Shown here: piece by piece, positions 53,812-63,574 of the stretch
Layout of the letters: each line of letters begins with the position of its first letter
How positions within the stretch are numbered: position 1 is the stretch's first letter
Source: Bdellovibrionales bacterium GWA1_52_35
GTDB lineage: Bacteria > Bdellovibrionota > UBA1018
DNA: 64,000 bases
NCBI GenBank assembly: GCA_001769805.1
Contig: MEPO01000003.1
Coordinates: forward strand, 62,001-126,000
Direction: 5' to 3'
Translations under genes and position numbers: made by a program
The notes under the pieces: generated by a model
Told to the model about the DNA's origin: nothing
The model's input: the letters and a program-made list of their open reading frames with translations, nothing else
Database searches by the model: none

Positions 53812-53854
53812 GACATTGACGCTGATCGCGTAACCGAGTAAGTAGACAGGACTC

Positions 53855-55693
53855 ATGGCTATCCTCGTCAGCGCACATCAACTCACCAAGGCTTTTGCCG
53901 CACGACCATTATTTTCCGGTCTTACCTTCGCCATTTCCGAAGGCGAACGAATCGGCCTCATCGGACCCAACGGAGCTGGTAAGTCCACTTTGCTGCGGAT
54001 CCTCGCAGGCCAGAGCGGTTATTCCCAGGATGCGGGAACCCTTTCCATTCAGCGGGGCCTGAGAATCGGATTTCTGGAGCAGGTGCCACAATTTCTGCCG
54101 GGAGCCACAGTACTGAGTACCATTCTGGAGGGTGTTCCTGGCAAGAGCTTGAGTCATGATGACTCCGATCATTGGGAGCAGCACGGAATCGTACATGAAT
54201 TGAGTTCCCGGTTCGGCTTTGATCAGCTCCCCGGTGGAACAGAAACCAAGGTCGAACTCCTTTCGGGCGGCTGGAAAAAGAAAGTGGCGCTCGCCCGGGA
54301 GCTGGTGAAAAAGCCGGATCTTCTGCTTTTAGATGAGCCGACCAATCATCTGGACGTTGAAAGTATCCTGTGGCTTGAAAATCTGCTGGCTCGCGCGAAT
54401 TTTGCCGCCCTGACGATTACCCATGACCGGCTTTTCCTTCAGAGAATCGCAAACAGAATAGTGGAACTCGACCCCAGGCATGTCGGGGGGCTTTTGAGCG
54501 TTCAGGGCAATTACGCGGATTATCTCAGCGTTCGTGAACAGATCATCCTGGCGCAGGAGAAGCGCGAAGTGATTCTCAAGAACACCCTGCGCCGCGAGAC
54601 TGAGTGGCTCAGGCAGGGCGCAAAAGCCCGGACCACCAAACAGCAGGCCCGTATCAACCGGGCAGGAGAGTTGAAGGATACCGTCGAGGACCTTTCGACC
54701 CGGAATCTGGTTCGGACCGCTCGGATTGACTTTCAGGCTGCTGAAAAAAATCCCAAGAAGCTGGTCGAAGCCAAAAGAATCTTCAAGTCTTACGGACCCA
54801 AAAAAATATTTTCCGATCTGGATCTGCTGATCACGCCGGGAACACGACTCGGGCTGCTTGGCCCGAACGGTTCGGGCAAATCAACCTTGATCCGGGTGCT
54901 TCTCGGCACGGAACCTCCATCGGGTGGCGAGGTGTTCCGCTCGGAACACCTTTCCGTCGCATATTTCGATCAGACGCGTGAAGCGCTCGATCCCCTTAAA
55001 ACCGTGGCTAAAACCTTGTGTCCCACCGGCGATTATGTCGGCTACCGCAATATGCGGGTGCATATCCGGAGTTATCTGGATCGTTTTCTTTTCACCCAAG
55101 GTCAGATGGACATGGCCGTGGGGAAACTCTCCGGCGGAGAGCAGGCTCGACTGCTGATCGCACGCCTCATGTTGACTGAAGCAAATTTACTGGTCCTCGA
55201 TGAGCCGACCAATGATCTCGATATGGCGACACTGAATGTTCTGGAGGATTGTCTGGCTGAATTTCCAGGTGCTGTTATCCTGGTGACCCATGATCGGTAT
55301 TTTCTGGATCAGGTGACAAATAAAATTCTTTCGTTCACCGATGGCAAGCTGCTGACCTTTGCGGATGTCGGGCAGTGGGAGACCTGGATCACGACTCATT
55401 CCCGCAATTCCGGAGCGAAGACACAAAGCGTTCAGACGGGAAACGGATCAGGAACCAACTCATCTGGTAAGAGGCGAAAGCTCAGTTTCAAGGATCAGCG
55501 GGAACTCGATGGAATGGAGGCCTCCATTCAGCAGGCCGAAGCCCGGCTCCAGCAATTAACCGAAGAAAGCTCGCATCCGGAGAATATCTCGAATGCCACC
55601 AATCTTGCGCGAATCACCCAGGAGCTATCGCTGGCCCAGTCTGAAGTGGAGCGACTTTATGTTCGCTGGGGAGAGCTGGAAGGCAATGGTTGA
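53855..55693 (+). CDS. ABC-F family ATPase (Uup/EttA-like)
   Basis: Two ABC domains (GPNGAGKSTLLRILAG, LSGGWKKKVALARELVKKPDLLLLDEPTNHLD; GPNGSGKSTLIRVLLG, LSGGEQARLLIARLMLTEANLLVLDEPTNDLD), C-terminal coiled coil. Confidence 0.93.
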   Translation: MAILVSAHQLTKAFAARPLFSGLTFAISEGERIGLIGPNGAGKSTLLRILAGQSGYSQDAGTLSIQRGLRIGFLEQVPQFLPGATVLSTILEGVPGKSLSHDDSDHWEQHGIVHELSSRFGFDQLPGGTETKVELLSGGWKKKVALARELVKKPDLLLLDEPTNHLDVESILWLENLLARANFAALTITHDRLFLQRIANRIVELDPRHVGGLLSVQGNYADYLSVREQIILAQEKREVILKNTLRRETEWLRQGAKARTTKQQARINRAGELKDTVEDLSTRNLVRTARIDFQAAEKNPKKLVEAKRIFKSYGPKKIFSDLDLLITPGTRLGLLGPNGSGKSTLIRVLLGTEPPSGGEVFRSEHLSVAYFDQTREALDPLKTVAKTLCPTGDYVGYRNMRVHIRSYLDRFLFTQGQMDMAVGKLSGGEQARLLIARLMLTEANLLVLDEPTNDLDMATLNVLEDCLAEFPGAVILVTHDRYFLDQVTNKILSFTDGKLLTFADVGQWETWITTHSRNSGAKTQSVQTGNGSGTNSSGKRRKLSFKDQRELDGMEASIQQAEARLQQLTEESSHPENISNATNLARITQELSLAQSEVERLYVRWGELEGNG

Positions 55694-56772
55694 GCGGACG
55701 GCTGTATTGGTATGACACTCCTTACCTTGTCCCTGAAGCCTTCTTTGCTTTCGGCTAACAGATAGGCTTCTTCGACATCCGCATTGCCTTGTGCAACCTG
55801 TTCCAGCAGCGCATCGTCCATCAACTTCATCCCGCGGCTCTGACCGGCAGAAATAATATTGTAGAGGTTGGAAATATTTCCTTCGCGAATACTGGGCCCC
55901 ATGCCGGGGCCTTCTAGAAGTATTTCGTTGACGGCGACACGACCGCCACTCTTTTTTTTCATGAGCAGCTGGGCACAGATTCCCCGCAGCGAATCCGCGA
56001 GCATGGATCTCGCCATGCCCTGGAGAGGAGCCGGGAATACGTCGATGATCCGGTCCACTGTTTTCACGGCTGAGTTCGTATGCAGGGTGCCGAAGACAAG
56101 AACTCCTTTTGAGGCGGCTGTCAGAGCGAGCGAGATCGTCTCGAGATCGCGCATTTCGCCCACAAGAATTACATCACAGTCCTGCCGTGCGGCCGAGCGC
56201 AGCCCGTCTGCAAAGGTATTCACATCACTGCCGACTTCCCGCTGACAGAAGGAGCTCATTTTGTTCTTGTGAACGAACTCGATGGGCTCTTCGATCGTAA
56301 GAATGTAACGCCGGTAACGCTCATTGATATGGTTGATCACGGCAGCAAGCGTCGTGCTTTTTCCTGAACCCGTGGGACCGGTAACGAGCACCAGCCCGGA
56401 CCGGAAGTGAGCGAAGTTCTTGATGACCTTTGGAAGGTGGAGTTCTTCCACGGTGAGTATCTTCGTGGGGATGATTCGGAAAACTGCCGCCATTCCATGA
56501 ATTTGCCAATAGTAATTGCAGCGAAAGCGCATGGTGGCGTCTTTTTCATACGCGAAATCGAGATCTTTGGTTTTAAGGAAGTTAGCCCATCGGGTCGGGT
56601 TGCAGATTTCCTGCAGAAACGTCCGTATGCGCGCCTCGTCCAGCAGGGGCTCCTCGCTCAGGGGTATGATGGAACCGTGTTGCCGGAGCTTGGGGCGCTG
56701 GCCCTGGACCAGATGCAGATCAGAAGCTTGATGGGCGATCATCAGGTCAAAGAGTTGGTCGATTTTAGCCAT
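55657..56772 (-). CDS. PilT-family twitching ATPase
   Basis: TGPTGSGKSTTLAAVINHIN, EEPIEFVHKNKMSSFCQREVG, DCDVILVGEMRDLETISLALTAASKGVLVFGTLHTNSA. Confidence 0.92.
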   Translation of the reverse strand: MAKIDQLFDLMIAHQASDLHLVQGQRPKLRQHGSIIPLSEEPLLDEARIRTFLQEICNPTRWANFLKTKDLDFAYEKDATMRFRCNYYWQIHGMAAVFRIIPTKILTVEELHLPKVIKNFAHFRSGLVLVTGPTGSGKSTTLAAVINHINERYRRYILTIEEPIEFVHKNKMSSFCQREVGSDVNTFADGLRSAARQDCDVILVGEMRDLETISLALTAASKGVLVFGTLHTNSAVKTVDRIIDVFPAPLQGMARSMLADSLRGICAQLLMKKKSGGRVAVNEILLEGPGMGPSIREGNISNLYNIISAGQSRGMKLMDDALLEQVAQGNADVEEAYLLAESKEGFRDKVRSVIPIQPSAQPLPSSSPQRT

Positions 56773-56775
56773 GCT

Positions 56776-58074
56776 TCATTCATCCTTCGGTGCGAAGCGC
56801 TGGTGAGGAGCCTGGTTCTCGGAAGCAAAATACGCCTCCAGCCCGGAAATGGTACCAGCCTTCAAATGATCAGATATCGAGGAGTCCATGCTGTGCATTC
56901 CCAGTGCCGCGCCCGTCTGGACCACCGACGGAATCTGAATGAACTGGCTTTTGCGGATCAGGCTTCCAATCGCCGAGTTGTTGATGAGAATCTCGGTTGC
57001 CAGTACCTGGCCTGCATTGTTTTCGAGTGGAATCAATTTCTGTGCGATAATTCCGCGGAGCGATTCCGAGATCATCATCTGGATCTGCTGTTTCTGGTCA
57101 GCCGGAAACATATCGAGCAGCCTCGTGATCGTCCGGACCGCGCTGGTGGTGTGCAAGGTCGAAATCACCAGATGGCCGGTCTCAGAGGCCGTGATGGCGA
57201 GAGAGGCGGTCTCATAATCCCTGAGCTCGCCAATCATGATGACATCCGGATCTTCCCGGAGGGCCGCGCGCAAAGCCGCTGAAAAGCTGGCCGTATGGTC
57301 GATCAATTGCCGTTGGCTGAAATGTGCTTTATTCGGCACGAATACATTTTCAATCGGGTCTTCCAGTGAAATGATGTGGCAGGACCGCTTTTGATTGATC
57401 ATCTCCAGCATCGCGGCAACAGTGGTGCTCTTGCCACAACCACTGGGGCCGGTGACCAGGACGAGGCCCTGATGATAATTGGTCAGTTGCGTCATGACAG
57501 TTTCGGAAAGGCCCAGACTCTTGGGAGTCGCAATATTTTTGCGGATCATGCGGAAAGACCCGTCATAACCGTTCTTCTGCTTCAGAATACACATGCGATA
57601 ACGTTCGTCTTCCAGGACGAGCGAGGTATCCAGGTACTTGTTCTTCAGCAGCAGCTCGCGCTGAGCAGGGTCCAGCAGATTAAAAAGTAGGGTCTCGGCT
57701 TCTGCGGCGTTGATGGGAGCAGGACCGAATTCCTGGAGCGTTCCGAACTTCCGAACGACTGGGGGGCTCCCGACAATGATGTGAAAGTCAGAGGCCCCGG
57801 CCGCGCGGGCTGAACTGAGAAGCTGGGCGATGGGAAGACTTTTGCCCGGGGCAGGTTTGGTTGAAGCAGGCCCTGCCTGGGTGGCCCTTTGCCAGGTGCT
57901 TTGGATCTGCTCGGCATGCCCCGCATTGAGGAGCTGCGCCTGAAGAAGGACTTGGAGCAGAGAAATTCCTCCCACAGCCTGCAGCTGGCTGGCTTTGGCA
58001 ATCTGAATTTGCGCGGTGGATAATAACTTATTGTGGAGTACAACCTTTTCGACAAACTGATCGAAGGCATCCAT
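56776..58074 (-). CDS. PilT/PilU-like ATPase with N-terminal extension
   Basis: TGPSGCGKSTTVAAMLEMIN, DPDVIMIGELRDYETASLAITASETGHLVISTLHTTSA; about 90-residue N-terminal domain absent from the neighbouring paralog. Confidence 0.9.
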   Translation of the reverse strand: MDAFDQFVEKVVLHNKLLSTAQIQIAKASQLQAVGGISLLQVLLQAQLLNAGHAEQIQSTWQRATQAGPASTKPAPGKSLPIAQLLSSARAAGASDFHIIVGSPPVVRKFGTLQEFGPAPINAAEAETLLFNLLDPAQRELLLKNKYLDTSLVLEDERYRMCILKQKNGYDGSFRMIRKNIATPKSLGLSETVMTQLTNYHQGLVLVTGPSGCGKSTTVAAMLEMINQKRSCHIISLEDPIENVFVPNKAHFSQRQLIDHTASFSAALRAALREDPDVIMIGELRDYETASLAITASETGHLVISTLHTTSAVRTITRLLDMFPADQKQQIQMMISESLRGIIAQKLIPLENNAGQVLATEILINNSAIGSLIRKSQFIQIPSVVQTGAALGMHSMDSSISDHLKAGTISGLEAYFASENQAPHQRFAPKDE

Positions 58075-58984: not shown

Positions 58985-59644
58985 ATGCCGATACCATTTG
59001 ACGAGTTCCGCCCAATTTTTCCGCCGCATCCAGCGGCTAAATGGCGACCGGAAGAGCTCGCATCCGTTACGGGCTACCTTGCCCAATACAAATACGATGA
59101 CTGGCGGACCCTGGTTTATGTCTTCCCTGACGGCGAAATACAGTTATATGGCAGGAAAAAGCAGAGGTTGGCCCGCTATCGTCCGCCGCTGGAACTGATC
59201 CGTTCGCTGGAAGCGTTGAACTTTTCCAAGGGGAAATTCCAGGTTCTGGATGGGGGCTTGCTGCATTACAAGACAGAAAGAGTGAAGGACACTTTGGTTC
59301 TGTGGGATGTTCTCGTATATGACGGACAATACTTAATTGGCACGAATTTCACGCAGCGCTATGGCATTTTGGAGGAAATGACCGGCCGCCCGGAAAACTG
59401 GGTTTATCTGGCTGCTGGAGCCCTGAGAATCCCGGTCGGCCTGCAGATTTCCGGAAATCTGTGGCTCGCTCCTGTTTTCAGTTCAAATTTCAGTGAACTA
59501 TATAAAAATGCCAGCCAGCTTCCGGAAATTGAAGGTTTGGTACTGAAAGATCCAAATGCCCCACTTCAGCGGGCGTGGACAATGGACGAAAACGCCACCT
59601 GGATGATCCGGGTGCGGAAACCGGAAGTACACTATCGGTTCTGA
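58985..59644 (+). CDS. Truncated ATP-dependent DNA ligase-like adenylation-domain protein (219 aa, no OB fold)
   Basis: Motif I-like YKYDDWRTLVYVFPDG; LDGGLLHY...LVLWDVLVYDGQYLIGTNFTQRYGILEEM; motif IV-like EGLVLKDP; ends at WMIRVRKPEVHYRF. Confidence 0.65.
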   Translation: MPIPFDEFRPIFPPHPAAKWRPEELASVTGYLAQYKYDDWRTLVYVFPDGEIQLYGRKKQRLARYRPPLELIRSLEALNFSKGKFQVLDGGLLHYKTERVKDTLVLWDVLVYDGQYLIGTNFTQRYGILEEMTGRPENWVYLAAGALRIPVGLQISGNLWLAPVFSSNFSELYKNASQLPEIEGLVLKDPNAPLQRAWTMDENATWMIRVRKPEVHYRF

Positions 59645-59672
59645 TCGGCGCGTAATTTGAAACCATAATGGT

Positions 59673-60446
59673 ATGGCGACAAATCCAAGGAAAAACGGAC
59701 AGCATAAACTCGTGTCGGTGCCCGGCGGAAAAGAGCAATCAGCCGTGGGTGAGTTGTTGAGCGGCAGGGTCTCCAAGGCCCCTCGGACGCCCAGGAAGAA
59801 AAAAGCTGAAATTCCCGCTCAGGAGTTGCCCAAAGAGGTGGCGAAGCTTGCGAATCTGTTTGCTGCCGCACGAACCATCAAGAAAGAAATCGAAAGCAAG
59901 GAACAGTATGCCAGGAATCGTCTGGACGAGTTCTGTCTGCGCGACTTCGCGCGTCGCGCTGCTTTGAGTGATCGCCGACCCGGAAGCATTGATTACAGTT
60001 CTGATTACGCGAAATTTAAATTTGTACTGACCTCCCGGACGACCCTGACTCCGGAAAAGGAAGAAGCATTGACGGATCTGGGATTGCCCCTCGGTGAGCA
60101 GACCCGCCTTGCAGGAATCGAGATCAATTACGAAGCAATCCGGGCGCATGGTCTAGAGGAAAAATTGCGGCAGGCTCTGGAATCCATGGATATTGACAAG
60201 AGCATTCTCGACGAGTGCTTCCGGCCCAAGGTGGAACTCAAGGAAAGTTTCTACGATCGCTTGCCCGAACTTGTTGGACATATTGTCGAGCGCAAGGACG
60301 AACTCGAGGACAAAATGCACGAAGTGCTTCGTATTCTGCAGCCGACCGCACAGCTCCGGAATGTGGATGTGAAAGGCCTGACCGCCAAACAATGTTTCGA
60401 TCTTGTCACGCAGACCGAAATCGAAGCCGAGGAGGAGATTGCCTGA
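59673..60446 (+). CDS. Uncharacterized protein with basic N-terminal tail (257 aa)
   Basis: ORF tightly linked between the ligase-like and LigD-Pol genes. Basic tail SKAPRTPRKKKAE then a charged helical body. Confidence 0.75.
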   Translation: MATNPRKNGQHKLVSVPGGKEQSAVGELLSGRVSKAPRTPRKKKAEIPAQELPKEVAKLANLFAAARTIKKEIESKEQYARNRLDEFCLRDFARRAALSDRRPGSIDYSSDYAKFKFVLTSRTTLTPEKEEALTDLGLPLGEQTRLAGIEINYEAIRAHGLEEKLRQALESMDIDKSILDECFRPKVELKESFYDRLPELVGHIVERKDELEDKMHEVLRILQPTAQLRNVDVKGLTAKQCFDLVTQTEIEAEEEIA

Positions 60447-61378
60447 GCATCGAGTCACGGTATGTCAACGTCCAAGGGCGACTCCTCAAGTTTTCCAACC
60501 TGAGCAAGGTGTTTTATCCGGCCTCAGGTTTTACGAAGGGTCAGATCCTTGAGTATTACCGCAAAATCGGCCCGACTGTTCTGCCGTATCTCCAGAACCG
60601 ACCCTTTACGTTAAAGCGGTTTCCGGACGGAGTACGGGGGAGCGCATTTTACGAAAAGCAGTGTCCCCACTACCGGCAGCCCTGGGTCGCCACGGGTATC
60701 ATGGGTTCCACCCGGTATTGTCTGATCAATGATCTGGCGACCCTGCTTTGGGCCGTAAACCTGGCGGCAATCGAACTCCATACCACGCTCGGGACCATCT
60801 CCTCGCCACAGAAGCCGACGATGTGTGTCTTTGATCTGGACCCAGGAGAAGGCGTGGATCTGAGCGGTTGCATGGAAGTGGCTTTGCAGATGCAGAATAT
60901 ATTTAAGACGCTCCGCCTCGAGGCCGTACCAAAGACCTCCGGGATGAAAGGTCTTCATTTGCTGGTACCCCTGAATTCCCAGCAGGCAATCGGTTCGGTG
61001 AGGGAGTTCACGAAACAGGCAGCAGAGTTCATGGAGCTTAAATTTCCTGACTTGGTCACCTCGAAGATGCCCAAGCAGTACCGAGCTGGAAAAGTCTACA
61101 TCGACTGGCAGCAGAACACTGATTTCAAGACAACAACCTCGGTGTACTCACTGCGGGCTAACGAATTCCCCACGGTTTCAACCCCGCTGGACTGGCGTGA
61201 AATAGAACCCGGAACTGCGCGGAATTATGAAGTGGCGGAGGTTCTGGAACGCGTCAGGAAAAAAGGGGATCTTGCTGCTCCTGTATTGGAAACGGTCCAG
61301 ACGCTTCCGGTTTTCAATGATGATCTCAGGGGCATACTGGGGCGCGCCCTTGAAAAAAAATCCAAAAACGCGGCGTAA
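60443..61378 (+). CDS. LigD-type polymerase/primase domain protein (stand-alone PolDom)
   Basis: SNLSKVFYPASGFTKGQILEYYRKIGPTVLPYLQNRPFTLKRFPDG, CVFDLDPGEG, PKTSGMKGLHLLVPL, KVYIDWQQNTDFKTTTSVYSLRA. Likely CTG start at 60443 (GGAGGAG RBS, CTGA overlap). Confidence 0.85.
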   Translation: MSIESRYVNVQGRLLKFSNLSKVFYPASGFTKGQILEYYRKIGPTVLPYLQNRPFTLKRFPDGVRGSAFYEKQCPHYRQPWVATGIMGSTRYCLINDLATLLWAVNLAAIELHTTLGTISSPQKPTMCVFDLDPGEGVDLSGCMEVALQMQNIFKTLRLEAVPKTSGMKGLHLLVPLNSQQAIGSVREFTKQAAEFMELKFPDLVTSKMPKQYRAGKVYIDWQQNTDFKTTTSVYSLRANEFPTVSTPLDWREIEPGTARNYEVAEVLERVRKKGDLAAPVLETVQTLPVFNDDLRGILGRALEKKSKNAA

Positions 61379-62932: not shown

Positions 62933-63538
62933 TCAAAAGAAATACTTTAGAGTACCGAGTACGTTCACAATCGTGCTGACGCCGTTCACAGTCGAATAAC
63001 CTGAAATCGGCTCATCGCTTGTCGTCTTGAACAGCAGGTTCAGTTCACCGCCTGCGGCCAGGCGTTCCGCAACGGGAATTTCATAGCCGGCTTTGGGGCC
63101 GATGAATAGGTTCATATTCCTTTTGCTGTCGTTATAGATTCCGGGTGCCGCGGCTTCTATATAAGATGAGACCAGTCCCGCTTTGGCTCCCAACTCCAGC
63201 CCTTCCATCAGCTCGCCCATCAGTACAGTGGCTTCGCCGCCAAAAAAAGTCATCGATTGGCTGCTGTTGTTCAGCGTGACGGCTGCCGAAGTGATTGAAC
63301 CCAGCGTAATGCGATCGACGAAAACGCCCGCGGAAGCCGTCGGTGTCAAGCGCATGCCAACAGTTCCGCCGTAGCTCAGATCACTGCCCTGCTGGTTGTT
63401 AGAGAAACCGACGCCCAGTTGTCCGGCCACGAACACGGATTGGCCACCGATTGCCGAAGCGGCTGAGGCGTTGCTTGCGTTAAATATACTGAAGATCAGT
63501 CCTATGCTGCAAAACCCTGAAAGCATTTTTTGTTTCAT
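62933..63538 (-). CDS. Secreted/outer-membrane beta-barrel-like protein
   Basis: Signal MKQKMLSGFCSIGLIFSIFNASNASA, terminal VLGTLKYFF pattern typical of an OMP C-terminus. Confidence 0.65.
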   Translation of the reverse strand: MKQKMLSGFCSIGLIFSIFNASNASAASAIGGQSVFVAGQLGVGFSNNQQGSDLSYGGTVGMRLTPTASAGVFVDRITLGSITSAAVTLNNSSQSMTFFGGEATVLMGELMEGLELGAKAGLVSSYIEAAAPGIYNDSKRNMNLFIGPKAGYEIPVAERLAAGGELNLLFKTTSDEPISGYSTVNGVSTIVNVLGTLKYFF

Positions 63539-63552
63539 ACTTTTTCCATTCC

Positions 63553-63566
63553 GCGCAAATTTGCGC
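63553..63566. promoter_or_regulatory. 14-bp perfect palindrome GCGCAAATTTGCGC
   Basis: Lies in the 36-bp gap between two same-strand genes. Confidence 0.35.
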
Positions 63567-63574
63567 AACGGTCC

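Follow-up and report, generated by a model that had tools for sequence, protein, structure and literature searches.

A candidate Ku-independent DNA-end repair module that combines LigD parts with an OB-less ligase-type protein and a conserved partner family

The window analyzed here, a whole stretch of 64,000 nucleotides, carries three co-directional, tightly packed genes (Table 1) encoding a pared-down ligase-type protein (P1), a middle protein (P2), and a LigD-type polymerase (Pol). The packing put forward in the preliminary description is real. A gap of 28 bp separates P1 from P2, and the 4-bp overlap (CTGA) between P2 and Pol holds, given the CTG start of the third gene at 60443. That start is probable from the sequence context; an AGGAG-like motif closely precedes it, and the next conventional start upstream is a GTG at 60215, within P2. 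P1 and P2 are under purifying selection, with a dN/dS of ∼0.27 between two relatives, G002 and G025, and in that comparison P1 was about equally as low as P2 and Pol. The assembly of the window's own genome (G000) comprises 35 contigs and is 92.6% complete, so the absence of a gene from it falls short of proof. Upstream of the trio are two neighboring genes for PilT-like ATPases. An ABC-F-like ATPase gene adjoins P2 in G030 and G020, and the window has a homolog ∼3.3 kb upstream of the trio, perhaps a remnant of shared gene order. The window and G019 each have, close to the module, a gene for a predicted outer-membrane protein, and the two are similar.

Table 1. Features of the trio, its P1 motifs, and related genes in the window and in other genomes
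Feature	Location	Position	Strand	Remark
P1 (gene 1)	Window	58985-59644	+	219 aa; OB-less covalent nucleotidyltransferase, ligase superfamily
P2 (gene 2)	Window	59673-60446	+	257 aa; family without a library match, of predicted helical/hairpin make-up
Pol (gene 3)	Window	60443-61378	+	Stand-alone LigD-type primase-polymerase (PolDom); start probably a CTG that overlaps the P2 stop
P1 motif I	P1	K36-Y-D-D-W-R
P1 motif III	P1	LDGG		Glu lost
P1 motif IIIa	P1	D108
P1 motif IV	P1	E183-G-L-V-L-K188
P1 motif V	P1	R209-V-R211-K
ABC-F-like ATPase homolog	Window	53846-55690
PilT-like ATPases (two genes)	Window	55657-58074	-
Predicted outer-membrane protein	Window	62936-63574
LigD phosphoesterase (PE)	G000:C24	102559-102876		Stand-alone gene
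ABC-F-like ATPase	G030, L061	3162-4937		Adjoins P2
ABC-F-like ATPase	G020, L067	2611-4437		Adjoins P2
P2	G020, L067	4564-5238		Short of its C-terminal part
Predicted outer-membrane protein	G019, L058	6479-7141
DUF72-type gene	L071	2829-3653
DUF72-type gene	L091	8066-9016
DUF72-type gene	L094	4935-5729
DUF72-type gene	L096	3121-3963
DUF72-type gene	L103	3659-4618
DUF72-type gene	L057	3766-4794
Phage-like stretch	G165, L240	2922-8784		AAA-type ATPase gene, OB-less P1 homolog, weak P2-like gene

The first protein had been likened to the nucleotidyltransferase (NTase) half of ATP-dependent DNA ligases, and profile comparison bears this out. P1 matched Pfam DNA_ligase_A_M at 5.3e-9, beyond the curated cut-off for that NTase domain; the profile indicates a ligase-type fold and not the structural unlikeness to ligase NTases that had been named beforehand as counting against the idea. 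The motif I lysine and motif IV glutamate by which a DNA ligase is recognized are present (K36 and E183). In an alignment of 12 to 14 diverse P1 homologs, K36, D108, E183, G184, and R211 were invariant; the adenylylation lysine K36, together with D108, E183, and R211, is kept across 20 to 53% identity, and the motif IV lysine K188 is found in nearly all. The unusual KYDDWR and LDGG motifs read as first described, and the sequence indeed stops just past motif V, which leaves none for a C-terminal OB domain with motif VI. The motif I DG is DD in the window's P1, the motif III glutamate is glycine in all five P1 proteins of the type A defined below (LDGG in the window and LDGG or LDAG elsewhere), and both motif V lysines are arginines in the window's P1 branch. 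The motif III glutamate is present in type-B and phage P1 proteins, and the phage motifs are nearer to canonical. Type-A P1 proteins, the window's included, match DNA-ligase families; type-B and some phage P1 proteins match Pfam RNA_ligase (1e-5 to 5e-8), and their matches to an RNA ligase family of PHROG reach 6.6e-7. Ligases normally require the OB fold for self-adenylylation. In the Mycobacterium tuberculosis LigD, the nucleophile is Lys481, and nick sealing needs Glu613 and Lys637 (PMC8656161).

The third gene was correctly identified as a LigD-type PolDom. It matched Pfam LigD_Prim-Pol at 1.2e-80, and its best PDB match was the M. tuberculosis LigD PolDom (E = 9.7e-55), with the FDLDPGEG and VYIDW catalytic motifs aligned. 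A stand-alone gene for a LigD phosphoesterase (PE) was detected at 2.8e-41 on another contig of the same genome, and the H, H, and D positions of its HHARRLHWDF motif are intact by eye. The genome-wide search for Ku that the preliminary description had proposed was run with PF02735 and found no Ku in the window's own genome; the same search detected Ku in Bacillus subtilis and in 61 of the phylum's genomes. A LigD ligase domain with both NTase and OB was likewise not found in that genome, where Pol and PE are encoded separately and nothing but P1 matches DNA_ligase_A_M.

The middle protein had been reported to match no recognizable family, and this holds in Pfam, NCBIfam, PHROG, and PADLOC, defense families included. 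Its basic tail exists but sits N-terminally (+9 over residues 1 to 45), and the remainder is acidic (−10). The tail is predicted to be followed by a long helix, a beta hairpin, and a helical C-terminal half. AlphaFold models of type-A and type-B P2 were of moderate confidence (pLDDT 70 and 77, respectively) and, with the B model built from B sequences alone, agree in a predicted order of helical N terminus, beta hairpin, helix, short helices, strand, two helices, and strand. Neither model had a significant fold match in the PDB, nor did the type-B model in a viral library. Direct profile comparison of the two types was weak, and the phage homologs described below connect them: type A matched the phage profiles at 84 to 85% (E about 7e-6), type B matched them at 37 to 72%, and type A plus phage matched type B at 96% (E = 3e-9). 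By these profile comparisons, the A, B, and phage proteins are one family, with the phage group bridging A and B.

Two candidate relatives of P2 were set aside. PprA appeared only at an E value of 4.8, and no claim is made for it. Phage Mu Gam is an end-binding protein that has been described as Ku-like, and type-A P2 shares with it a helical N terminus, a beta hairpin, and an EINxEAI-like stretch. The type-A profile gave a Gam probability of 14.7% and a score of 28.5 versus 21.5 for the best column shuffle. However, the signal was lost once the phage P2 group was added, with the probability down to 2.9% with all P2 groups included; the register was incoherent, and no Gam match of P2 was found in Pfam or PHROG. 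Homology of P2 to Gam is unsupported.

A search among 58 relatives found P2 in seven genomes, all of type A, and a wider profile found it in 16 of the 369 genomes of the phylum, a set consisting mostly of metagenome-assembled genomes. Single-sequence P2 scans of the genome and viral collections gave no match; a type-B query found no P2 in named phages or plasmids, and a type-A query found none in phages. Named relatives are labeled Bdellovibrionales, Bdellovibrio, Silvanigrellales, Bacteriovoracaceae, and Deltaproteobacteria. A profile of the operon form returned 11 loci, and those with a taxon name belong to Bdellovibrionales and allies, Silvanigrellales, or Deltaproteobacteria. In type A (G000, G002, G005, G019, G020, G025, and G030), Pol, P2, and usually P1 are separate genes, as is PE in five of the seven. 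Gene order varies within this type, with Pol divergent from P2-P1 in G002 and G025, the two genomes in which PE was undetected, and PE lying between P1 and P2 in G005. A PE domain is present in most P2 genomes. Type B (G001, G011, G024, G303, G304, G332, G335, and G368, plus loci L103 and L108) has the order LigD-P2-P1, a layout found at ten loci from four families, including L103 and L108. A gap of ∼1.3 kb follows LigD before P2-P1 in G332, and in G334 (L094) P2-P1 lies at a contig end with LigD on another contig. P2 occurs without P1 in G020 and G030; the G020 gene is truncated, and the module may be decaying in that genome. The clearest recurrent neighbor besides the core genes is a gene with an SGWTY motif, which we take to be of the DUF72 type; it lies after or near P1-P2 in six loci of both layouts and is a possible further component of the module.

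The P1-P2 pairing is above chance, given its joint recurrence across many genera and the purifying selection on both proteins. P1-P2 occurs with LigD parts across genera, and the outcome named at the outset as fatal to the idea of an operon, that the trio is never conserved together, was not observed. The proposal of a split or alternative LigD-like module stands as far as the parts are split and shared across genera with no Ku found. It had not foreseen the PE gene elsewhere in the genome, the LigD-P2-P1 operon with its eroded ligase domain, or the pair in huge phages.

The loss of a LigD ligase active site accompanies the pair. The ligase region of type-B LigD has no canonical motif I or V, and the ligase domain is missing altogether from the LigD proteins of L093 and L108, whereas the full-length Ku-associated LigDs that we examined have kept motif I. 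In G030, which is without P1, a stand-alone ligase of the LigD type with an OB domain is present, interrupted by an assembly N, and two fragments of such a ligase remain in its congener G020. This pattern fits, without proving, the idea that P1 is interchangeable with a LigD-type ligase.

P2 and Ku are distributed quite differently among genomes with a LigD polymerase. The polymerase was found in all 16 P2 genomes and in 59 of the 61 Ku genomes among the 369. Of 81 Pol genomes, 15 have P2 only, 58 have Ku only, 1 has both, and 7, some of them partial or of low completeness, have neither (odds ratio, 0.008; Fisher P = 3e-10, a statistic that ignores shared ancestry). The single P2 genome with a Ku match, G303, has two LigDs, one beside P2-P1 (L091) and the second beside Ku (L222), ∼575 kb from the P2 operon. 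In a tree of LigD Pol sequences, the P2-associated polymerases are split from nearly all Ku-associated ones by a branch with support of 100/99. The exception is G331 (L230), in which Pol groups with the P2-associated proteins, ligase motif I is intact, P2 is undetected, and Ku lies on another contig. We infer that G331 could represent an ancestral state.

Homologs of P1 were present in 5 of 50,697 phage records, all from uncultured phages of 595 to 735 kb. Four of the five (635 to 735 kb), and no others of the 50,697, also have a P2 homolog. LR756501 and LR756503 are probably one phage, since their lengths are equal and their matches identical. P1 and P2 are adjacent in two of the four records, the 735-kb phage among these, and again in L257, a viral contig. 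Searches of the huge-phage records with P1-P2 for Pol and PE homologs gave none, and for that reason the pair may have a role other than end joining in phages. In G165, a genome of the phylum in which the first search detected no P2, P1 belongs to a phage-like region. A weakly P2-like gene lies ∼4 kb from it, and the score of this gene, 13 to 15 bits against a best shuffle of 11.2, is only suggestive of a P2 relative.

We give about even odds (a probability of roughly 0.5) that the trio belongs to a module for Ku-independent repair of DNA ends, one that arose from LigD-type nonhomologous end joining (NHEJ), with P1 replacing the LigD ligase domain and P2 acting as a scaffold or end binder. The phosphoesterase encoded on the other contig would trim 3′ ends, the polymerase would fill gaps or align ends, and P1 would provide adenylate transfer or sealing instead of the LigD ligase domain. 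P2, the leading candidate for a Ku- or OB-like role, would hold the DNA ends, P1, or both, standing in for Ku and for the OB domain of the ligase. P1 and P2 would be a functional pair, perhaps a complex, which huge phages carry as well but with neither Pol nor PE. Several observations stand against this reading. The window's P1 branch lacks the motif III glutamate, has arginine for both motif V lysines, and has no OB fold; fold searches with P2, whose core is acidic, gave no significant match; G020 and G030 keep P2 without P1; and PE is undetected in G002 and G025. A bolder form, about which we are rather doubtful, makes P1-P2 a DNA-sealing enzyme of two subunits, with P2 taking the place of the OB domain as well as of Ku, so that a pair shared with phages would have displaced Ku and the LigD ligase domain in a new kind of bacterial end joining.

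The same genes might instead serve repair of gaps or single-strand breaks or base excision repair (BER), like mycobacterial LigC and Prim-PolC, with P2 as a loading or scaffold factor at gaps and not a Ku substitute. Prim-PolC and LigC form a BER complex that acts without Ku, and Prim-PolC binds short gaps (PMC5663958); a stand-alone Pol in a genome with no Ku found agrees with such a role. We think this unlikely. No glycosylase or other BER gene was recognized by eye among recurrent neighbors at 25 loci, most P2 genomes have the PE domain typical of LigD, and LigC is a full ligase with an OB domain, unlike the OB-less P1, the only such protein in the window's own genome.

Two further explanations turn on P1. 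The RNA-ligase matches of type-B and some phage P1 proteins, and the occurrence of P1-P2 in huge phages without Pol or PE, would suit a phage-derived pair for RNA or nick repair that was recruited beside LigD parts, its substrate perhaps RNA or the DNA/RNA junctions left by ribonucleotide filling. This seems improbable for the module at hand; type-A P1 proteins, including that of the window, have their matches among DNA-ligase families, and in bacteria P1-P2 is closely linked with LigD Pol and PE. Least probable in our estimation is the suggestion of the preliminary description that the ligase fold has become a nucleotide sensor, with P1 of the window lineage devoid of ligase activity and serving Pol and P2 as an AMP/ATP-binding subunit, structural or regulatory. 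The exchange of the motif III glutamate for glycine in all five type-A proteins, the motif I DD, and the missing OB fold are what such a protein might show, but the catalytic lysine, the motif IIIa aspartate, and the motif IV glutamate are invariant, the motif IV lysine is nearly so, and dN/dS is about as low as for P2 and Pol.

Bacterial end joining is taken to require Ku. The P2 lineage appears to keep the LigD polymerase and phosphoesterase, lose Ku, let the LigD ligase domain decay, and carry P1 and P2, and the question of Ku replacement becomes directly testable in it. The module also gives a first hint at the function of a protein pair encoded by huge phages of 635 to 735 kb, and it may be an instance of a ligase that functions with no OB domain. 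We found no description of a P1-P2/LigD module in our search of open-access literature.

Bacterial NHEJ, as in M. tuberculosis and B. subtilis, consists of Ku and LigD. The present module resembles it in its LigD-type polymerase and phosphoesterase domains and in its co-localized genes, and differs in having no Ku match, a lost or eroded LigD ligase domain, and an OB-less P1 with P2 instead. The archaeal split NHEJ of Methanocella paludicola likewise has Pol, PE, and ligase as separate proteins; however, it has Ku and a full ligase, neither of which was found here. The LigC/Prim-PolC system shares a stand-alone primase-polymerase linked to a ligase-type gene and no requirement for Ku, but here P1 has no OB domain, P2 and PE are present, and no glycosylase linkage was seen. 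Jumbo phages encode stand-alone ligase DNA-binding domains (PMC7824862), a precedent in large phage genomes for ligase parts carried on separate polypeptides. In that case the part on its own is the helical DNA-binding domain; here it is the NTase, accompanied by P2, which has no Pfam ligase domain match.
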